IMG/VR virus record: IMGVR_UViG_3300032895_000081
Coordinates: 1 to 20,406 of that record
Source: a virus
DNA length: 20,406 bases
Reading direction: 5' to 3' (one strand)
In this document: piece by piece, positions 3,347 through 20,406 of the stretch
Position numbering within the stretch: the first letter of the stretch is position 1
Layout: each line of letters begins with the position of its first letter
Notes under the pieces: generated by a model
The model's input: the letters and a program-made list of their open reading frames with translations, nothing else
The model's database searches: none
What the model was told of the DNA's origin: nothing
Translations under genes and position numbers: made by a program

Positions 3347-6300
3347 GTGTCTGTGCCAGCTGCAGAAACTGCGGAAACCCAGCAGCCAGTTCAGCAACAG
3401 CCAGAACTCCAGCATCCCGTTCTTGATGCGCTCATAGCTGGCTATCTGCTCACCCATCCGCCGCTGGCACAGTTTATGCAGCGTCGCCGCAGCTACGTGG
3501 CAGGCATGTCAGGTACACGGCTTGCGCAGCTAGCACAGGTGCTGCATCAGGTTCAGCAGCAGGCACTGGCCGATGGTCAAGTTCCCGAACCTGAAGAAGT
3601 GAAACAGCAGCTGGATGCGGTGCTCGCCAGTCCCGCAGTCGGCGGTGCGCCAGACGGTCCAGCAGCCAGCTCAGCGGCTAACGTCGGCCAGACCGAAGTA
3701 TCCGCTGCCGTGGCTGAAGCCGCTCATGATACCTACCGCAACGCTGGCGTGGCAGCCACTGAATGGCTTACAGCAGAAGACGAAAAAGTATGCCCCATCT
3801 GCGCCGCTAACGAAGCCGCAGGCGCAGTGCCCATGGGCATGCCGTTTCCGTCTGGTGACCTTATGCCCCCAGCGCACCCACGGTGCCTACCTGGGAACAC
3901 TCTTGTAACGGCCAGTAGCCGTATCACGGGTGCAACCTCGCGGGTATACAACGGTGATCTCGTCAGCATCCGCACTCTGACGGGCAAGCTCCTCACCGCT
4001 ACCCCCAATCATCCGGTACTGACGAACCAGGGCTGGGTTCCTGCGGGCGTCGTGCAGGTAGGCGAGCAGGTAGTCACTAGCAGCTGGAGTCAGCGGGTGC
4101 GTGGCGTTGACAACAATCACCAGCACATGCCAGCCACTGTCAAGCAGGTAGCGGAAGCGTTTTTGCGCTCTGGCCAGGTGCTGTCCGCTGAAGTGCCAGT
4201 TGCCGCCGAAGATTTCCACGGCGATGGGGCCGGCAGTGAAATCTGCATTGTAGGGGCCTATCGCCGTCTGCCGACGCCATACAATGCCACGGTCGTCCAT
4301 AAATGTGGCCATCAGGTTTTCCAGCGGAGAGATGTTACCAGGCTTGGCTTCGCGCCCCTTGGCCGCCGCAACGCGCTTTTCGTCGGTAAGAGGCACTCCG
4401 CGCACCGCCGCATGCGCAGCGCTAACCAGCCGCTGGCGCTCCTCGGGGCTGGTCCTGGCCATACGCAGGTACATGCTGGTGCTTCGGCCCCTTGGCTCAA
4501 TGCCGTTCTCCACGAGCCGAAGCCGTACCACTGGTCGGCTGACGCCGAAGGCTTCGCTCAGCGCCTTCTCACTCTCTCCAGCGACATAGCGCTGGATGAG
4601 GTCGTCCACGTCGAAGTCGCTACGGCGAACACCCATGTTTACAACCTTGAAACCGAAAGTGGATGGTACATAGCCAACGGTATTGTAACCCACAACTGTC
4701 GGTGTACCCACACGCCGACTGACTATTACAGTGTCCCGCCGTACGTTCAGCAACGGGAAGGTGAGCCGCTGCGGTGGTTTGGCTGGCCTGACACGTCGCT
4801 GACTGAAGAACAGCGGCTGCAGAATAAGGGCTGGCACGATGCGTGGATGCACGAGGCGCGCGGTTTCCACGGTGAGTGGGCGGGAATAGACACCTTTATA
4901 CCTGGCATGAAACCAGCGCAAGGTGTTAAAGACCTGCAGACCGTAGTCAAGAACATATCTGGCGCTGGCGACCATGAAGTCACCTATGGCCGCATGCCGA
5001 CCTTGTGCCCAGCATGTAACGGCATCGGCGGAACATGCGAGCAGTGCGGCGGCACCGGCAAGCAGCCGACAGGGAAGTGCCTGAGCTGCGGCTGCGGCCT
5101 TCCCCATGACGACCACGGCGACCCGCGTAACATCACCCAGGACGACGTGCAGGCCGCGGCAGCTGCTGCTGAACTGCCTGGCGGTCAGGCAGCCAGCAAC
5201 ATAGCCGACTGGTACCGCAGCCAGCCTGATGCTGACGACGCACCCACCGCTAAGGTGCTCACCGCAGATGAGATAGCCCGCATAGACGACGCACTGATGC
5301 ATGCGTACAAAAAGAAGTCACCCCGTGGTAATGCTCAGACGCTACGTGATTACTGGTCAGGCCACGGGCACGCTGGACCATCACACGGTGCTGAACGTGA
5401 CGCCATAGCCTGGGGCACACCAGGCGACTTCGACAGGTGCGTCGCCATGGTGACCACTCACGCGAAGATGTCACCTGAGCAGGCTAAAGGTTACTGCGCT
5501 GAGCGGCATCATGATGCGCTTGGCATATGGCCAGCCACGCACGCTAAGGACATCCGCGAGGCTTCGGGTGGGAGCAAGAAGCACGTCTCCATCGCCGACC
5601 TGGTGAAAGCCGGCCCAGAGGGCTATATCCACGGCTGGATTTGTGTCCGCCCGCCCTGCGGTGAAAAAGACAGCCTCCACCTGGAAGAGAACGAGCAGGC
5701 CACGTTCAGCATCCCAGGTCACGGAATGATGGCCAGCTACCGCATTGTGCACGGCGGTACTGGCCAGCAGCTGGGCACCGTCCGCCCGACAGGTGACCGC
5801 GAACACGGCGTCCAGTTCGCCGCGTACAACAACACCAACGTCCACACTCCTTCTGCTGTGGGGGATGACCCAGCGAGCGGCCTGCGGCAGGTAGCCCGCG
5901 AGCATGACCTGCGGCTGCTGCGTGACAAAGCCAGTGCCGCTGGGTTCACCGAACCAAGACGGCAGCTGGACAATGCCCGCAACCAGCTGATGGGCGGCCG
6001 TGAAGACGCTGCTGCGGAGTCGCTGCGGAGCGCGCAGCAAACACTGGACGCGATACCGCCAGTTACCGACCCGCGTGGCTTCTCCAACGCTAAAGATGTA
6101 GCCCAGCTGCGTAACGGCGTCGTGGACCTTTACCATGACCTAACTGGCGATGAGCTGCCTGAGCGGAAACTGGAAGTCCCTGACGAGCCATGGGCTAAAA
6201 CAGGGAAGATACGCCGCAGCCAGCTAGAAGTTCACTGGGGTGACGGCAGCCATGCTGAGGTCATCCATAAGCCCACCGGGATTCAGGTTGGCACAATTGA

Positions 6301-7243
6301 CCAGGAGTGGCTCAGCAAAAGGCAGCCGCATCTGGCTAAGGGCACCATTGCCAGCGACAGCAAAGCCTATTACACAGGCCGGCATGCTGACGGCAGCGTG
6401 GTGTCGTTTGCTGCCAGTGATGCTAAGCAGCCAGGTGCAGACAAAGCACTCACCCGCCTGATTGATGCTCATAACAAGCGGCTGGAGCCAGCGCCGCCAC
6501 GTGAACCAGAACCACCCGTGCCAGCGTTGCCTGACAAGCCACCAGACTGGTTCCTGGCCGACCACTCCATCAACTCTGACAGCCTTGACAGTTTGAGCGG
6601 CACCTACACCCAGGAGCAGCTGGCCCGCGCGCACCAGCAGATACGTGACCAGCTTAACCACCAGGCCCGCTATGTGCCGAACGTGGTTGCCCGTGCCAAA
6701 GTGAACGTCACCAAGCCAACTGGCGGGGGAGTGCGCAGCAACTGGCTTGGCGAGCACTACGGCACCAACGGCACCATCAACATCAAGCCTGAGATTCTGG
6801 ACTCCCTCGGGGACCCAGTCAAGAACGACCGCACGCTGGTGAGCGGCCAGGGCACCTGGTGGCCGCCAGCAGACGATAAGTGGTCGCTGGCTGATACGGT
6901 GCTAGCACATGAGATAGGCCACGGCGTGGCTGACCGTGGCCTCAGCGCACGGTACGCCGGCCCTGACCTGTGGAAGAAAATAGCTGACGGCATTGGCGTC
7001 ATGCCGCCGATGGACCTGGAAAAAAAGAGCAAGTTCGACTACGAGCAGGCTGTTAACCGCTGGATTGGCTCAAACAAAGCCAAAATTGCCAGGGAAGTGT
7101 CTGACTACGGTTCCGCCAACATGAATGAGATGCTGGCGGAACTGTGGCAGGAGTACACGCAGTCGTCTAACCCGCGGGCTGCGGCTAAAGCCTACGGCGA
7201 ATACGTGATGCGTTATCTTAAGGACAGAGAGAAGCAGCCGTGA
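3347..7243 (+). CDS. MuF-type minor capsid protein, intein-containing, with zinc and HEIGH peptidase domains
   Basis: The 1298-residue precursor becomes 1027 residues after removal of an intein (residues 180-450). GTG 3347 follows TAGGAG at 5 bases. Residues ~1-130 are helical. The MuF (SPP1 gp7/Mu gpF) core follows: WLTAEDEKVCPICAANEAAG (C149, C152), then PPAHPR, which after splicing continues CRCTHTP. MuF proteins are minor head proteins near the portal, injected or needed for assembly. After the intein come a DnaJ-like zinc module (C554 onward, CPACNGIGGTCEQCGGTG), a WGTPGDFDRCV domain (~689-730), a GPEGYIHGW module (~756), a helical region, a Pro-rich linker (~1047-1067) and a metallopeptidase-like domain with HEIGH at 1188-1192 and a later NEMLAELWQEY segment that may give the third ligand. 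MuF proteins with C-terminal effector domains are known from temperate phages. Whether this domain acts on virion or host proteins is unknown. Confidence 0.88.
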   Translation: MSVPAAETAETQQPVQQQPELQHPVLDALIAGYLLTHPPLAQFMQRRRSYVAGMSGTRLAQLAQVLHQVQQQALADGQVPEPEEVKQQLDAVLASPAVGGAPDGPAASSAANVGQTEVSAAVAEAAHDTYRNAGVAATEWLTAEDEKVCPICAANEAAGAVPMGMPFPSGDLMPPAHPRCLPGNTLVTASSRITGATSRVYNGDLVSIRTLTGKLLTATPNHPVLTNQGWVPAGVVQVGEQVVTSSWSQRVRGVDNNHQHMPATVKQVAEAFLRSGQVLSAEVPVAAEDFHGDGAGSEICIVGAYRRLPTPYNATVVHKCGHQVFQRRDVTRLGFAPLGRRNALFVGKRHSAHRRMRSANQPLALLGAGPGHTQVHAGASAPWLNAVLHEPKPYHWSADAEGFAQRLLTLSSDIALDEVVHVEVATANTHVYNLETESGWYIANGIVTHNCRCTHTPTDYYSVPPYVQQREGEPLRWFGWPDTSLTEEQRLQNKGWHDAWMHEARGFHGEWAGIDTFIPGMKPAQGVKDLQTVVKNISGAGDHEVTYGRMPTLCPACNGIGGTCEQCGGTGKQPTGKCLSCGCGLPHDDHGDPRNITQDDVQAAAAAAELPGGQAASNIADWYRSQPDADDAPTAKVLTADEIARIDDALMHAYKKKSPRGNAQTLRDYWSGHGHAGPSHGAERDAIAWGTPGDFDRCVAMVTTHAKMSPEQAKGYCAERHHDALGIWPATHAKDIREASGGSKKHVSIADLVKAGPEGYIHGWICVRPPCGEKDSLHLEENEQATFSIPGHGMMASYRIVHGGTGQQLGTVRPTGDREHGVQFAAYNNTNVHTPSAVGDDPASGLRQVAREHDLRLLRDKASAAGFTEPRRQLDNARNQLMGGREDAAAESLRSAQQTLDAIPPVTDPRGFSNAKDVAQLRNGVVDLYHDLTGDELPERKLEVPDEPWAKTGKIRRSQLEVHWGDGSHAEVIHKPTGIQVGTIDQEWLSKRQPHLAKGTIASDSKAYYTGRHADGSVVSFAASDAKQPGADKALTRLIDAHNKRLEPAPPREPEPPVPALPDKPPDWFLADHSINSDSLDSLSGTYTQEQLARAHQQIRDQLNHQARYVPNVVARAKVNVTKPTGGGVRSNWLGEHYGTNGTINIKPEILDSLGDPVKNDRTLVSGQGTWWPPADDKWSLADTVLAHEIGHGVADRGLSARYAGPDLWKKIADGIGVMPPMDLEKKSKFDYEQAVNRWIGSNKAKIAREVSDYGSANMNEMLAELWQEYTQSSNPRAAAKAYGEYVMRYLKDREKQP
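3887..4636 (-). CDS. Antisense homing endonuclease (HTH + Vsr/EDxHD-like nuclease) nested inside intein 1
   Basis: The complementary strand of intein 1 encodes a 249-residue protein with strong coding features. ATG 4636 has AAGG 9 bases upstream (TCAAGGTTGTAAAC). Residues ~8-50 form a helix-turn-helix (LIQRYVAGESEKALSEAFGV, then SRPVVRLRLVENGIEPRG) typical of DNA-recognition parts of phage homing enzymes. Residues ~104-180 resemble a Vsr/EDxHD/DUF559-type nuclease: E106 in a helix, then YNADF (D132), VEIFGGNWH (E141, W147, H148), an Arg/Lys helix, and GWHVLVIVV. The TAG stop is antisense to intein codon 2 (CTA), so the gene lies wholly within the intein. Codons are GC-rich at third positions in this frame. 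The frame is also open further upstream to 5302, but no meaningful protein is seen there. Presumed role: cutting intein-free MuF alleles to spread the intein. Confidence 0.82.
   Translation of the reverse strand: MGVRRSDFDVDDLIQRYVAGESEKALSEAFGVSRPVVRLRLVENGIEPRGRSTSMYLRMARTSPEERQRLVSAAHAAVRGVPLTDEKRVAAAKGREAKPGNISPLENLMATFMDDRGIVWRRQTAIGPYNADFTAGPIAVEIFGGNWHFSGQHLARAQKRFRYLLDSGWHVLVIVVNATHPLTPAASDYLLAYLHDARRNPALVRQYRMIGGSGEELARQSADADEITVVYPRGCTRDTATGRYKSVPR
4682..4687 (-). promoter_or_regulatory. Candidate -10 element (TACAAT) for the antisense endonuclease
   Basis: Read on the minus strand, TACAAT lies about 46 bases upstream of the antisense endonuclease ATG, within the block G codons of the intein. 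No good -35 hexamer is visible at 16-18 bases, so this is weak. If real, promoter, ribosome site, gene and stop all sit inside the mobile element. Confidence 0.22.
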
Positions 7244-13923: not shown

Positions 13924-15786
13924 GTGGCCGATATTCTGACCGCAGAAGTATCTAAGGTTGGCGCGGAGGCAGCTGCCGAGGCCAGCTGGTATGACACCCC
14001 AATGGACATGCTGGCCGGCCGCATGCCCGAAGCCGTCAAGGGTGCTGGCTTTGCCCGCCCAGGCGGCAACAAGCCCATCGACAACGACGACGAGATTTTT
14101 GACCGTGCGTTCAAGGCTACTAAGGCACTGCGCAGCGCGGTTTCTAAAGGCCAGAAGCATCCTGAAGAAGTCCGCAAGAGCCTGAACCCGAGTTTCACCA
14201 GCCAGTTTGGCAACTTCCTGGCGGCAGGCACCCCAGGGTTCGGCAACAGCGGTCTCACTGAGCTGGTGCAGCAGATTAACTCTGCGTTCAGCCAGACTGA
14301 TGCGCTTAAGAACTTCACGCTGACTGCGCCGCTGTCCAGCGGCTTTGTGCCGTTTGACCTGGTTGCGCCGTCGCGTCTTATCTACCCGGTGTACTCGCCG
14401 CTGCGGAACAAGATTCCGCGGGTGCCTGGCCAGGGCACCAGCCGGCGTGTCAAGGTCGTGACTGGTGTCAGCGGCTCCCAGACCGGTGGTCAGGGCGTCA
14501 TCGACATCAGCATTCCTGAGCTGGTCAGCGGTACTTCCATCACAGGCACGTGGCCACTGAACCTGCCTGGGTCAGGCAACCAGACTGCTATCGACCTGAA
14601 CGTCCCCTACCAGTTCTTCGGCCTGACTGAAGCACTGTCGTGGCTGGCGCAGTTCGGCGGTCAGGGCTTTGAGGACATCAGCGCCCTGGCTAACCTGATT
14701 CTGCTTCAGGAGTTCATGCTGGCCGAGGAGTACGCCATGCTGGCGGCTACTCCAACCAACCTGGCCGCACCAGGTGCTTCAACGCTGGCTGTCCGCACGC
14801 CAGGCAGCAACGAGACTGCGCTTTCCAACGGCACCTACTACGTGTACGTGACGGCAGTCAACTTCTACGGTGAAACCATCGCCGGGACGGTGTCGGCCAG
14901 CCAGGCTGTCAGCAGCCAGGTGCTTGATGTCACCATCAGCCCTGTTGCTGGTGCGCAGCAGTACAACGTGTACATTGGCACCTCAGCCTCATCGACGTCT
15001 TGTTACCTGCAGGTGGGTACCAGCTACCAGGGTTCCACCACGTACGTGGGGGCGCAGTCAGCTAACTCGGTCGGCGGGCACAAGATAACCCTCCAGGGCA
15101 CGGTAGCTACCTCAGCTAACGGCACTCCGCCAACCTCTGACACCGGCACCGGCAAGAGCACCCGCATGGCCGGCATGATTCCCACCCTCTCAGGCCAGGC
15201 GGCTACCGCGGGTGTGTACCCAACGTCGCCGTCCGCATGGGAAGCCGGGTACATCAACCAGTCGCTGGGCACGCACCTGAGCATCAGCGCAGTAAACAAC
15301 GCCCTGCAGTCGCTGTTCGACGGCGGCAGCGGTATTTCGCCTGGTTCCTTCCGAGCTGACCCAGCGGAGCTGGTTGGTGAGGGTGGCGACATCATGCGGA
15401 TGTCTAACGACATTGTGCAGTCGGGTCAGGCAACCACATACCAGCTGCTGATTCAGCAGAGCGAAGTCGACGGCATCATGTCGGGTGCTGCGGTCAGCCA
15501 GTTCCAGAACCCGATTACCCGCAGCAAGATTCAGCTGCTGGTGCACCCGTGGCTCACGCAGGGCACCGCCATGCTGATGAGTTACACGCTGCCGTTCACC
15601 TGGTCCAACGTGGCCAACTGCTGGGAAATGGTGATGGTGCAGGACTACCTGTCCATCAGCTGGCCAGTCATAGATGCGACATTTAGGTACAGTCTATTCC
15701 AATATGGGGCATTGGTGGCGCAGGCACCGTACTACAGCGGTCTTCTGCAGGGCATTCAGGTGTCCGATCAGACCCCATATAGCTGA
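13924..15786 (+). CDS. Major capsid protein (HK97-like) with inserted Ig/FnIII-like domain
   Basis: The 620-residue product starts at GTG 13924 behind a perfect AAAGGAGG site, the strongest in the window, as expected for the most abundant virion protein. It directly follows the protease/scaffold gene. The N-terminal ~100 residues are charged and helical and may be a cleaved delta-type domain. The FTLTAPLSSGFVPFDLVAPSRLIYPVYSPLRNKIPRV region and the later helical and beta parts (FGLTEALSWLAQFGG; NPITRSKIQLLVHPWL) fit actinophage HK97-fold capsid proteins. Residues ~281-380 form a separate module (NGTYYVYVTAVNFYGETIAG, QYNVYIGTS) typical of FnIII/Ig-like surface insertions. The last ~40 codons use rarer, AT-richer codons (ATA, AGG, CTA, TTG), unlike the rest of the gene, just where a homing endonuclease gene follows. 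Confidence 0.85.
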   Translation: MADILTAEVSKVGAEAAAEASWYDTPMDMLAGRMPEAVKGAGFARPGGNKPIDNDDEIFDRAFKATKALRSAVSKGQKHPEEVRKSLNPSFTSQFGNFLAAGTPGFGNSGLTELVQQINSAFSQTDALKNFTLTAPLSSGFVPFDLVAPSRLIYPVYSPLRNKIPRVPGQGTSRRVKVVTGVSGSQTGGQGVIDISIPELVSGTSITGTWPLNLPGSGNQTAIDLNVPYQFFGLTEALSWLAQFGGQGFEDISALANLILLQEFMLAEEYAMLAATPTNLAAPGASTLAVRTPGSNETALSNGTYYVYVTAVNFYGETIAGTVSASQAVSSQVLDVTISPVAGAQQYNVYIGTSASSTSCYLQVGTSYQGSTTYVGAQSANSVGGHKITLQGTVATSANGTPPTSDTGTGKSTRMAGMIPTLSGQAATAGVYPTSPSAWEAGYINQSLGTHLSISAVNNALQSLFDGGSGISPGSFRADPAELVGEGGDIMRMSNDIVQSGQATTYQLLIQQSEVDGIMSGAAVSQFQNPITRSKIQLLVHPWLTQGTAMLMSYTLPFTWSNVANCWEMVMVQDYLSISWPVIDATFRYSLFQYGALVAQAPYYSGLLQGIQVSDQTPYS

Positions 15787-15882: not shown

Positions 15883-16617
15883 GTGCCAACCGAAGAAGGT
15901 AAGAAGCAGCAGGCTGAGGCAGTAGCAGCAGCTAACCGCCGGCGTATGGGCGAGAAGCGCCCGAACCAGAAATCAACCCACACACCAGAGTCGGACGCTA
16001 AGCGTTCAGAAGCGATGAAGCGGCGCTGGGCTGACCCTGAGTACAAGGCAAGGCTTTCGGCAAAGTTCAAGGCCAGCATGACGCCGGAAACCAGGACCAA
16101 ACACAGCAAAGCCCAGAAACGTGTCCGCTCCAGTGAGACGGACAAAGCGCGGCGTGCTGAAATAGAAGCCAGGCCGGAAACCAAAGCTGCCCGGAGTGCC
16201 GCAGCCCGAAAGCGCTGGGCGCGGCCTGGGGAGCATGAACGGCAGAGCGAAGCTATCAGGCAGACGTGGGTAACACCTACACCTGAACGTCTCAACTCCC
16301 TGCACTGGCGGCATGACAAGCCGCTAACAGGACTAGAAATTCAGGTGCTGGCTGCCCTTGCTGCGCGGGGCGTAACACTGCCTGCCGAGCATATCCACAT
16401 GACGGTTGGCCGGTACGAGTTTGACTTCTACGTCGAATCCCTGAACCTGGATGTCGAGTGCGACAGCAGGCACTGGCATGCTCATCCAGACCGCGTCAAG
16501 CACGATGCTGTACGGGATAAGAAACTCAAGGCGCTCGGCTATACGGTCCTGCGCATCACCGAAGAAGAGATTACCGCTGGGGACTTCACCCGCCTGGACG
16601 AAATCCTCAGCAAGTAA
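15883..16617 (+). CDS. Free-standing homing endonuclease (NUMOD3-like repeats + Vsr/EDxHD-like nuclease)
   Basis: The 244-residue product starts at GTG 15883, 5 bases after GGAGG. The basic N-terminal half has repeated SEAMKRRWADPEYKARLS-type elements, at ~42-59 and again in weaker form near 104-130. These are characteristic of NUMOD3 DNA-binding motifs in phage homing endonucleases. The C-terminal half has a nuclease core: LEIQVL helix (E152), YEFDFYVE (D181), LDVECDSRHWH (E192, H197, W198, H199), D203, and LKALGYTVLRITEEEI. The E ... D ... E-x-x-x-x-W-H order matches the antisense nuclease in intein 1 (E106, D132, E141, W147, H148), suggesting one fold. Such enzymes cut gene alleles lacking the insertion and copy themselves in. 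The target is probably the 3' part of the capsid gene or the adjoining spacer. It is bracketed by two strong hairpins. Confidence 0.82.
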   Translation: MPTEEGKKQQAEAVAAANRRRMGEKRPNQKSTHTPESDAKRSEAMKRRWADPEYKARLSAKFKASMTPETRTKHSKAQKRVRSSETDKARRAEIEARPETKAARSAAARKRWARPGEHERQSEAIRQTWVTPTPERLNSLHWRHDKPLTGLEIQVLAALAARGVTLPAEHIHMTVGRYEFDFYVESLNLDVECDSRHWHAHPDRVKHDAVRDKKLKALGYTVLRITEEEITAGDFTRLDEILSK

Positions 16618-18546: not shown

Positions 18547-20406
18547 AGGATTCTGTGGTTCTCGAACGCTCCGTACATTCCAACGGGATACGGAACGCAA
18601 ACCGCTACCTGGCTGCCCCGTCTGGCGCAGCTAGGGCACGAGGTGATGTGCGCTGCCCCGTCGTCGCATTACGGTGCGCCGCTAGCCTGGGAAGGCATAA
18701 CTGTCCTACCAGGCTGGCGGGACGGCACTGGCAACGACATTCTGCTGGACCACTACAGGTGGTCTAAAGCGGACCTGGTTATCACCCTGTGTGACAGCTA
18801 TGTGCTGAACCCTGAGCTGGTCCGGCAGATGCGCTGTGCGCACTGGATTCCGGTGGACTGTGACCCGCCGAACTTCCGTGAGGTAGCTAACCTGGGCCAG
18901 ACGGGTGCACTGCCGATAGCTATGAGCAGGTTCGGGCAGCGGGCACTTAAGGGCCGCGGCGTGTCAGCCAGGTATGTGCCGCATGCTATTGACATCAAGA
19001 CGTTCTCGCCGCCCGCTGACCACATGGAGCAGCGGAACATCATTGGCCTGGGCAAAGACACATTCGTCATCGGCATTAACGCCTTCAACAAAGACGTGAT
19101 GCGCAAGGCGTTTGCGGAGCAGTTTCTGGCGTTCAGCCAGTTCCACCAGCAGCATCCCGATTCGATGCTGCTGGTGCATTCGTGCGTTGCGGACCCGTCG
19201 TCGGTGGATTTGCGCGCGCTGGCTGAGGAAACAGGTATTTCTGCCAGTGTGCTGTTCCCCGACCAGTATGCGTACGCGACCGGCATGATGACTGCTGAGA
19301 ACATGGCCAGCTGGTATGGTGCGCTGGACCTGCTGAGTAACTGCAGCTACGGCGAGGGCTTCGGCTTGCCGATTGTGGAAGCGCAAGCCTGCTTCCCAGC
19401 CGAAACTCCGGTTTCGGCTACAGGCATTGAGCGTACCATGAGCAGGACGTACAGCGGAGAGATGGTCTCCGTTACTACTGCTCGGGGTGACACGGTGGAG
19501 GCCACTGCCGAGCACCCATTCTGGACCGATAGGGGATGGATTCCCGCAGCTCAGCTAAGGCATGATGACCTGCTCCTATATACTGGGGGGTATGCCAGCA
19601 GCGGGATACAGGAAGTACACGCCGGAACAATTGGGGAGGTTGTCGCAGCTCTACGCACAGATGCCACTGAGGGAAGCGGCAGAGCACGCAGGTATGACCT
19701 ACGAGGCGGCGTTCTGGCAGGTGCGGCAGCTGGGCCTACGCAAACAGTTCTCGCAGATCGTCAAGCTGAACCCAGTTACCGTTGGTCCCGAGAGTCTGAG
19801 CTACCTGGCTGGCCTCATCGACGGCGAGGGAACCGTATCCATTCGCAAATTCAGCGGCAAGTACAAACCGACTATCCGCGTTGCGAATACGTCTCAGCCT
19901 CTGATGGCATGGCTGGAGAGACACTTCGACGGTCCTTCGACGTTTATCGAGCATCGTCGTATCCGACCAGCCAGCGAACTTCAGTGCTACATGTACCATA
20001 TTCAGGGACTCGGGCACCTGCCACTGTATCAGGCGCTGGTTCCCAGGCTGGTTATCAAACGCCAGCAAATGGAGTGCCTAGTAGAGTTCACCGAGCTGCG
20101 CCTGACTCAGAATCGTTCGGATCCCTTGTCGGAGCGGCAACTGGAACTGGTCTCTACCGTGCGGAACCTGAATATCAAGCCATCCGCTCGATTGCGCGCA
20201 GAGTTGTCCGCGAACTCCCTGTCTACAACCTGACAACGACTTCAGGTACGTACACAGCTGCTGGGTACCTGGTTCATAACTGCGGCACGCCTGTGGCTGT
20301 TACTGACTGCTCGTCTATGAGTGAGCTGGCTGGTCCTGGGTGGAAGATTCCGTGCCCGCTGCCATCCAGCAAGTTCTGGGTGCCTGCGCACCGCGGCTGG
20401 TGGCGC
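18544..20406 (+). CDS. GT4-type glycosyltransferase, intein-containing (3' truncated by window edge)
   Basis: 621 residues are visible and the frame runs off the window. The N-terminus (RILWFSNAPYIPTGYGTQT), the PRLAQLGHEV helix, later VPHAIDIKTFSP and VIGINAFNKD, and the C-terminal EGFGLPIVEAQA-CGTPVAVTDCS donor-site motif (after intein removal) are those of GT-B fold, family 4-type retaining transferases, which move sugar from a nucleotide donor. The start is the unusual ATT 18544, supported by the ribosome site and the family's normal N-terminus. The intein (residues 283-579) interrupts the conserved donor-binding E-x7-E region, so splicing is needed for activity. Position after Ser/Thr-rich surface-protein genes suggests glycosylation of virion proteins; host-surface modification is an alternative. 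Confidence 0.85.
   Translation, partial: MRILWFSNAPYIPTGYGTQTATWLPRLAQLGHEVMCAAPSSHYGAPLAWEGITVLPGWRDGTGNDILLDHYRWSKADLVITLCDSYVLNPELVRQMRCAHWIPVDCDPPNFREVANLGQTGALPIAMSRFGQRALKGRGVSARYVPHAIDIKTFSPPADHMEQRNIIGLGKDTFVIGINAFNKDVMRKAFAEQFLAFSQFHQQHPDSMLLVHSCVADPSSVDLRALAEETGISASVLFPDQYAYATGMMTAENMASWYGALDLLSNCSYGEGFGLPIVEAQACFPAETPVSATGIERTMSRTYSGEMVSVTTARGDTVEATAEHPFWTDRGWIPAAQLRHDDLLLYTGGYASSGIQEVHAGTIGEVVAALRTDATEGSGRARRYDLRGGVLAGAAAGPTQTVLADRQAEPSYRWSRESELPGWPHRRRGNRIHSQIQRQVQTDYPRCEYVSASDGMAGETLRRSFDVYRASSYPTSQRTSVLHVPYSGTRAPATVSGAGSQAGYQTPANGVPSRVHRAAPDSESFGSLVGAATGTGLYRAEPEYQAIRSIARRVVRELPVYNLTTTSGTYTAAGYLVHNCGTPVAVTDCSSMSELAGPGWKIPCPLPSSKFWVPAHRGWWR
19390..20280 (+). other. Intein 2 (297 aa) in the glycosyltransferase
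   Basis: The element runs from Cys (TGC 19390) to Asn (AAC 20278-20280), followed by Cys+1. Block A is CFPAETPVSATG. Block B is VEATAEHPFWTDRGW, with T-x-x-H. Block F is LPVYNLTTTSGTYTAAG and block G is YLVHN. All class 1 splicing residues are present. Between blocks B and F the splicing frame is open but carries Arg/Ser/Pro-rich sequence with no endonuclease motif (for example GWPHRRRGNR opposite the LAGLIDADG motif). That stretch encodes a LAGLIDADG enzyme in the +1 frame. Removal joins EAQA to CGTPV and restores a perfect GT-B motif. Confidence 0.93.
19562..20233 (+). CDS. LAGLIDADG homing endonuclease encoded out of frame inside intein 2
   Basis: The 223-residue product is read in the +1 frame relative to the intein and glycosyltransferase. 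TAAGG lies 2-5 bases before the paired ATGs at 19562/19565; ATG 19592 is an alternative. Residues ~19-60 form a helix-turn-helix-like domain (YTPEQLGRLSQLYAQMPLRE, then AAEHAGMTYEAAFWQVRQLG). A single motif YLAGLIDGEGTVSIRK follows at 81-96 with catalytic-type E89. Then come PTIRVANTSQPLMAWLERHF, a YMYHIQG strand and LVIKRQQMECLVEF, all standard for free-standing single-motif enzymes that act as homodimers. It ends with TGA 20231-20233 inside block F codons. It occupies the normal endonuclease position in an intein but as a separate gene. Expression probably needs internal translation initiation on the glycosyltransferase mRNA. Confidence 0.88.
   Translation: MMTCSYILGGMPAAGYRKYTPEQLGRLSQLYAQMPLREAAEHAGMTYEAAFWQVRQLGLRKQFSQIVKLNPVTVGPESLSYLAGLIDGEGTVSIRKFSGKYKPTIRVANTSQPLMAWLERHFDGPSTFIEHRRIRPASELQCYMYHIQGLGHLPLYQALVPRLVIKRQQMECLVEFTELRLTQNRSDPLSERQLELVSTVRNLNIKPSARLRAELSANSLSTT

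Follow-up and report, generated by a model that had tools for sequence, protein, structure and literature searches.

Inteins of the large canonical type, such as PI-SceI and PI-PfuI, carry their homing endonuclease as an in-frame domain. The virus record IMGVR_UViG_3300032895_000081 (20,406 bases, hereafter the window, to whose positions all coordinates refer) raises the question of where such a nuclease might reside when the intein frame has none: its gene for a MuF-like minor capsid protein is interrupted by an intein, and the opposite strand of the intein DNA contains an open reading frame (ORF) for a helix-turn-helix (HTH) protein with a nuclease-like fold. The initial annotation of this DNA had proposed a separate nuclease gene that uses the intein DNA in antisense, and comparative sequence evidence supports this proposal through the arrangement at 174 of 177 loci and through selection in both frames. 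We therefore consider the element very probably to be a mobile intein with its homing endonuclease encoded as a gene of its own, on the reverse strand of the intein DNA. The sequences show the conservation and selection of both frames, the nuclease fold, the embedding of the nuclease punctuation in the intein and the sporadic presence of the element at an exact site.

On the sense strand, the class 1 intein that had been placed at 3884-4696, with blocks A, B, F and G intact, proves to have been delimited correctly. Its plus-strand translation reads CLPGNTLVT...TATPNHPVL...HVYNLETESGWYIANGIVTHN followed by C+1; the Pfam Intein_splicing profile matches it over the cut-off (E 1.4e-11), and of the NCBIfam models intein_Cterm scores over its cut-off and intein_Nterm slightly below (24.1 vs 24.5 bits). 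The features of class 1 inteins are present: C1, T40, N42 and H43 of the window intein (P0003) are invariant in 23 aligned sequences, N271 is nearly invariant among them, block G has His-Asn (THN) followed by Cys +1, and the AlphaFold2 (AF2) model shows a Hint fold (block means 77-94 for residues 1-70 and 75-93 for residues 231-271). The mean predicted local distance difference test score (pLDDT) of this model is 63.1, with confident ends and residues 128-218 and 220-230 below 50, and the 50 chains in its Foldseek list are without exception inteins, hedgehog or intein-like domains. The statement that the intein frame contains no nuclease motif likewise stands: P0003 matched no nuclease family in Pfam, PHROG or NCBIfam profile searches, and no in-frame homing-endonuclease domain was found between blocks B and F.

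The minus strand had been credited with a 249-residue HTH plus Vsr/EDxHD-like ORF equipped with a ribosome site and a stop, and both the ORF (4636-3887, with AAGG and TAG) and its affinity (3r3p, 8e-7) are as described. Its codons lie exactly opposite those of the intein, such that nuclease residue i faces intein residue 252-i. A profile of 29 family members searched against PDB recovers I-Bth0305I (3r3p, E 8e-7), 3hrl (5.5e-4) and Vsr (1cw0, 0.0067), along with several HTH proteins (best 2lvs, 7.2e-8), and for 19 of the 29 members the match to REase_MTES_1575 has E <= 0.01. In the family alignment (A3) Y129, N130, D132, E141 and R160 are invariant, and E106 and H148 nearly so; the one-to-one match of the conserved E106, D132, E141, H148 and R160 to E-D-x-H-D is putative. 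The AlphaFold2 model, computed from 51 sequences, has a mean pLDDT of 91.8; its top Foldseek ranks are two I-Bth0305I chains and Vsr (E 2.5e-3 to 5.5e-3), and VIA-align gives Z scores of 11.4 for 1cw0 (113 residues, 2.4 A), 9.8 for 3r3p and 9.7 for 3hrl. Family profile, Foldseek and VIA-align thus place the protein in the EDxHD/Vsr catalytic fold, and the homology search and the structure predictions of both products, which had been put forward as checks, agree with the assignments made from the window alone. The minus-strand protein is, as judged from profiles and model, a nuclease of this fold, for which catalysis is predicted.

The arrangement recurs widely. At E <= 1e-3, tblastn finds 128 phage records that match the nuclease and 125 that match the intein, with nearly equal organism counts; records found with both queries have, where compared, the two matches in the same places on opposite strands. 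We assembled 177 loci, comprising the window, 20 phage records, 142 IMG/VR loci and 14 genome loci (for the IMG/VR relatives, the best 80 of 370 were kept). An overlapping opposite-strand intein match in codon register is present at 174 of the 177 (weakest E 4e-4); all 176 relatives were found via the nuclease, so that this count states how often relatives of the nuclease are antisense to an intein and not how frequent the design is among inteins. None of the 174 loci has a stop in the intein frame across the nuclease match, and in 166 of them the nuclease match is itself stop-free. The elements range from 37 to 72% GC and from 27 to 61% identity to the window nuclease (P0001), with a family average of 40%. 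When IMG/VR loci were fetched with the intein as the query, the nuclease was antisense in 50 of 50, some contigs being shared with the first set. Among four further records it is antisense in Sejanus, Idiomarinaceae 1N2-2 and Vibrio 1.113.A, and Lennon has an antisense LAGLIDADG-like ORF instead; no nuclease-free intein of this group that could serve as a control set was found among these 50 loci and four records. Carriers include phages of Gordonia, Mycobacterium, Salmonella, Escherichia, Klebsiella, Pseudomonas, Vibrio and others. In 25 phage regions the nuclease is annotated only in Acinetobacter phage P1068, where it is a free-standing gene; among these regions the locus L079 lacks any annotation, and vB_StyS-sam has a short coding sequence (CDS) on the same strand in a different frame. 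L079 belongs to Salmonella phage GE_vB_M5, in which the element is broken in both frames, the record being marked UNVERIFIED and possibly affected by sequencing errors. In the Kagunavirus Escherichia phage fEg-Eco06 (1303-2067, +) the same antisense architecture occurs elsewhere in MuF, upstream of an intact HPN/CRS motif.

Frame-by-frame constraint among homologues had been named at the outset as the means of judging the design, and on this comparison both frames come out under purifying selection, with the minus frame unbroken in 166 of 174. From the 174 intein-context loci, 11 were set aside as having no assigned end or as excluded, including the truncated L058 and L060 and the frameshifted L079, leaving 163 elements with both ends, from which 28 independent pairs were drawn; differences were classed by their effect in both frames, with the neighbouring N-extein as the control and each omega given for two backgrounds. 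Among the 13 pairs that share more than 72% identity, the nuclease has a linker omega of 0.28/0.23 and the intein one of 0.77/0.63, and opposite Hint-N (intein residues 1-68) the values are 0.37/0.56 and 0.31/0.47 respectively, the ratios being rough where doubly silent changes, which form the denominator, are few (10 in the Hint-N class). In the control extein of these pairs the false antisense frame gives 1.07/0.79 and MuF itself 0.40/0.30. Across all 28 pairs the values are 0.50/0.37 (nuclease) and 0.91/0.67 (intein) for the linker, 0.61/0.52 and 0.50/0.43 for Hint-N, and 1.06/0.95 for the false antisense frame. Purifying selection thus acts on both frames of the element, whereas the extein's false antisense frame evolves almost neutrally; on a plain reading, the linker is ruled by the nuclease and the ends are ruled by both proteins.

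The start, ribosome site and stop of the nuclease are embedded in the catalytic blocks of the intein and leave a trace in its synonymous codon choice, which was examined in 130 non-redundant elements against expectations based on extein codon usage; an earlier run, whose stricter block F filter excluded 23 of 137 elements and whose usage came from the whole intein-frame ORF, agrees with it. Block F is preceded by a His in 77 of 114 elements of the stricter set, and some of the others start a few codons away with a ribosome site. This His is encoded by CAT, which yields the nuclease ATG, in 68 of 87 elements (38.2 expected, simulated maximum 53). A Shine-Dalgarno 4-mer lies within 18 nt upstream in 78 of 87 elements, the synonymous null having a mean of 24.2 and a maximum of 37 in 500. 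At the other end, Leu2 of the intein is TTA or CTA, either of which provides the nuclease stop, in 64 of 82 elements against 11.7 expected (maximum 24 in 20,000 simulations), and in 62 of the 130 elements the nuclease ends exactly opposite intein residue 2.

Between these ends, a motif of the intein frame, EDFHGDG, faces the nuclease segment VAVEIF around Glu141; E109 to D114 are invariant and G115 is nearly so in 23 sequences. The nuclease codons opposite it are biased far beyond the usage of the same elements: V140 is GTG in 112 of 114 (24.6 expected), A139 is GCC in 122 of 126 (52.1), V138 is GTC in 90 of 91 (35.9) and P137 is CCC in 78 of 80 (27.8). In three free-standing relatives of the nuclease, GCC at 139 and CCC at 137 are found in none, and GTC at 138 with GTG at 140 only in L099. 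The codon bias at 137-140 therefore leaves the conservation of EDFHGDG unexplained by the nuclease frame. As read from this bias, selection at the motif is on the intein frame or on the DNA, which would point to either an intein-frame role or a DNA signal.

The three free-standing relatives, from Acinetobacter phage P1068 (L075, CDS WHB31326.1), a Thermoleophilia metagenome-assembled genome (L099) and an IMG/VR contig (L155), have an intact nuclease ORF whose opposite frame contains 7, 2 and 5 stops respectively, and no intein match was found on the opposite strand of any of them. Each is convergent with a neighbouring gene that matches Phage_Mu_F over the cut-off (7.6e-12, 7.8e-18 and 2.5e-9 in the same order), and the C(R/K)C site of this neighbour is uninterrupted, so that a free-standing nuclease beside an uninterrupted target is seen in these three and is not the situation in the window. 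Thus, the nuclease is a true protein family independent of inteins, adjoining its likely target. These three could be precursors or escapees.

The distribution of the element among close relatives speaks to mobility. When joined, the exteins of Salmonella phage vB_StyS-sam have matches in 1032 phage records at E <= 1e-10, of which 360 are from Salmonella; among the 60 matches listed, many cover the joined exteins full-length in one piece (best SaTp-04, 140 aa, 99.3%), and a nuclease match is present in 64 Salmonella records. Presence and absence at one exact codon between near-identical phages indicates, at the level of sequence, a homing element. We propose that the plus frame would provide a Hint splicing domain that excises itself from the MuF capsid protein, and since the intein would thereby remove itself the insertion would be harmless. 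The minus frame would provide an HTH plus EDxHD/Vsr-fold nuclease, and this enzyme would cleave MuF alleles that lack the intein, at or close to the PPAHPx/C(R)C codons; repair off the intein-bearing copy would then transfer both genes together. The nuclease core lies opposite the linker that joins the Hint halves, which the intein could otherwise dispense with and which is the place of the in-frame nuclease in canonical inteins, and the nuclease tail lies opposite blocks A-B in a truly dual-coded stretch, with the ribosome site and start opposite block F and the stop opposite Leu2. Antisense transcription and translation, cleavage of the MuF site and splicing are the steps that we infer.

Could the minus ORF instead be a shadow of the conserved intein gene, with its in-register frame open by chance? 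Long spurious antisense ORFs arise most readily in this register, and in the window the antisense frame is open past the intein, to 5302 (471 aa); an open antisense frame alone is weak evidence because this register is often open in GC-rich genes. Yet the nuclease frame (last ~30 codons excluded) is open in 125 of the 130 non-redundant elements, against 5.3 expected on synonymous recoding with extein codon usage; in 158 of 173 loci the best segments show higher identity for the nuclease than for the intein; omega is 1.07/0.79 in the extein's false antisense frame against 0.28/0.23 for the nuclease in the linker; and the intein-less free-standing relatives and the nuclease fold argue likewise, leaving this explanation a vanishingly small probability. 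We accordingly reject a spurious antisense ORF, on the grounds of the synonymous nulls, the free-standing relatives and the extein control. A degenerate, non-splicing intein, with only the nuclease selected and the plus frame merely kept stop-free to spare MuF, would account for the weak intein omega in the linker (0.77/0.63) and for most of residues 128-230 falling below pLDDT 50; it is nonetheless highly improbable in view of the Hint-N omega of 0.31/0.47, the invariant C1, T40, N42 and H43 with N271 nearly so, and the confident Hint ends. A nuclease that is real and expressed might also shelter in the intein and act elsewhere, in phage exclusion or in autoregulation through its HTH, with no role in homing: L008 and L021 have lost the nuclease frame and kept the intein, and the HTH region could bind other DNA. 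This we regard as unlikely, given that three free-standing relatives adjoin an uninterrupted MuF motif, that near-identical phages differ in having or lacking the element at one exact site, and that EDxHD enzymes are known homing endonucleases (PMC3943268).

Several observations weigh against the preferred reading, namely a mobile intein with its homing nuclease in antisense. The window nuclease alone has weak matches, to HTH_58 (0.0033) and, among nuclease families, to MTES_1575 (0.036), with 3r3p (0.75) ranking behind an RNase P protein (0.5), and an NCBIfam search of P0001 gave no match; its identity as a nuclease hence rests on the family. Foldseek with the nuclease model gave no match at E <= 0.001, and in VIA-align two T. 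gondii mitoribosome chains come next with Z 9.4 and 8.9, less than 1 below I-Bth0305I. The nuclease frame has a stop in 8 of 174 loci, five near the C-terminus and three in the core (L008, L021, L079), and 5 of the 130 elements fail the open-frame test. Stop-creating changes in the false frame are counted in the extein control and uncounted in the element. The codon tests take related elements as independent, the choices being synonymous ones in a family with about 40% identity to P0001. The block F His is CAC, giving GTG, in 19 of 87 elements, and the His itself is not diagnostic because the canonical intein KlbA also has one before block F (GHIYDL). Lastly, no sigma-70-like site turned up on the minus strand upstream of 4636 when 3700-5000 was scanned in a simple way.

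The element resembles a canonical large intein in having a Hint domain with a homing nuclease between blocks B and F, a conserved host motif and intein-free alleles. It differs in that the other strand carries the nuclease as an ORF of its own, complete with start codon, ribosome site and stop, and that the corresponding plus-frame interval is mostly low-confidence linker. With EDxHD enzymes such as I-Bth0305I and with Vsr it appears, from profiles and model, to share the catalytic fold and DNA-binding HTH modules beside the nuclease domain; unlike them, it is encoded antisense to an intein. Dassa et al. are said to have first described the EDxHD nuclease family, in 2009, as ORFs between split-intein halves. 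Antisense-strand homing-endonuclease genes exist in nuclear group I introns, which provide a parallel for a homing gene opposite the host-gene strand; unlike here, the intron is untranslated and there is no dual protein coding. A further parallel is the ShiLan domain, described in PMC11855218 as a hidden out-of-frame HNH endonuclease in mycobacteriophage methylases, and thus likewise a homing nuclease that is read in another frame from an in-frame insertion of a phage gene. As reported there, it is encoded on the same strand in the third frame, is of the HNH family, and neither a splicing domain nor a ribosome site was detected; unlike this type, the window nuclease is on the opposite strand and the splicing domain is present. 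The words antisense, opposite and reverse strand do not occur in the text of PMC11855218, which cites an actinophage-intein preprint (doi 10.1101/2025.01.02.630785) for overlapping reading frames. That preprint, with "Non-Canonical Architecture" in its title, may hold part of the present finding for actinophage cases. The initial annotation named no well-characterised example of the design, and among the literature matches listed no title or abstract opening mentions an antisense intein nuclease.

A second, unrelated instance of the design is seen in Gordonia phages. Nine records, from Lennon, Sitar, Nordenberg, Thing3, SchottB and Barsten, contain an antisense ORF of 196 residues with a LAGLIDADG-like FIDGEG motif opposite MuF. 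In Lennon (L230, 1992-2582, -) it lies, in codon register, on the strand opposite a different intein, which occupies the same MuF site; this intein, the one of the group that was read, has weak scores (Vint 0.027, Intein_splicing 0.21). The ORF matches annotated endonucleases of Cyanophage PP and some Caulobacter phages at 31-32%, and its Pfam match is marginal (LAGLIDADG_3 0.26). Of the differences that separate Lennon from Barsten, 44 are silent for the nuclease alone and 10.5 for the intein alone, 12 change both proteins and 6.5 change neither, and by nuclease codon position they number 16, 6 and 51; as far as one pair of sequences can tell, the nuclease frame is clearly selected.

Taken across both families, dual-strand inteins are likely to be widespread phage mobile elements, with splicing in sense and homing in antisense and with the nuclease punctuation lying within the catalytic blocks. 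They would have arisen at least twice, with unrelated nucleases (EDxHD and, in Gordonia phages, LAGLIDADG-like), at the same MuF site, a process that probably begins with an antisense nuclease beside its target coming to sit inside the intein. The free-standing relatives make this origin of intein-nuclease composites testable. One 0.8-kb segment here encodes two unrelated folds on opposite strands, both selected, and the family provides a large natural data set for antisense overlapping genes, of which firm examples are few. The split separates the control of splicing from that of homing. Moreover, inteins classed as nuclease-free may be mobile. Annotation misses the antisense nuclease.

The features of the locus are collected below.

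Positions of the intein, the antisense nuclease and their host gene in the window
Feature	Position	Strand	Basis
Host gene: MuF-like minor capsid protein, 1298 aa including intein	3347..7243	+	profile matches
Intein, 271 aa, Cys1 ... His-Asn, Cys+1; interrupts PPAHPR/CRC motif	3884..4696	+	Intein_splicing, AF2, Foldseek
Intein block B, TATPNHPVL	3995..4021	+	T40, N42, H43 invariant in alignment A4
Intein linker joining the two Hint halves, residues 69-233; opposite nuclease core	4088..4582	+	model confidence, substitution classes
EDFHGDG, motif conserved in the intein frame; faces nuclease Glu141 (putative active site)	4208..4228	+	alignment, codon bias
Intein blocks F and G, HVYNLETESGWYIANGIVTHN	4634..4696	+	intein_Cterm match
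Antisense putative homing-endonuclease ORF, 249 aa, HTH and EDxHD/Vsr-fold	3887..4636	-	profiles, model
Shine-Dalgarno-like AAGG, opposite block F Asn-Leu	4645..4648	-	sequence; ends 8 nt before ATG
Start codon ATG, opposite block F His codon CAT	4634..4636	-	sequence; codon statistics
Nuclease HTH region, residues 10-43	4508..4609	-	HTH matches, model helices
EDxHD/Vsr-fold catalytic region (putative), residues 104-199	4040..4327	-	alignment A3, structural match
Nuclease stop TAG, opposite intein Leu2 (CTA), block A	3887..3889	-	sequence; codon statistics

The host protein matches phrog_4728 (head morphogenesis, 1.8e-8), phrog_2841 (minor head protein, 2e-7) and phrog_15127 (1.1e-40, a profile that also covers the intein), with Phage_Mu_F (0.025) and SPP1 gp7 (2.7e-5) below their cut-offs. 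Close to its C-terminal end the translation contains an HExxH motif (LAHEIGHG), which is zinc-metallopeptidase-like. The window is far from the phages in the collection, where its major capsid protein has five matches at 24-29% identity.

Two further candidate homing nucleases lie in the window. A second intein (19390-20280, +), in a glycosyltransferase ORF, contains a 223-aa ORF (19562-20233, +) on the same strand in the +1 frame, which matches phrog_5046 (3.1e-18) and, below the cut-off, LAGLIDADG_3 (0.002); it would be a second hidden nuclease within the same 20 kb, of a family and in a frame different from those of the MuF-intein nuclease. IMG/VR scans found no relatives of P0004 or of this second intein, and a scan for the Jersey-type nuclease found a single locus. 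A third putative homing nuclease (15883-16617, +; DUF559, 8.2e-10) is free-standing and lies just downstream of the ORF at 13924-15786, which is taken as the major capsid gene.

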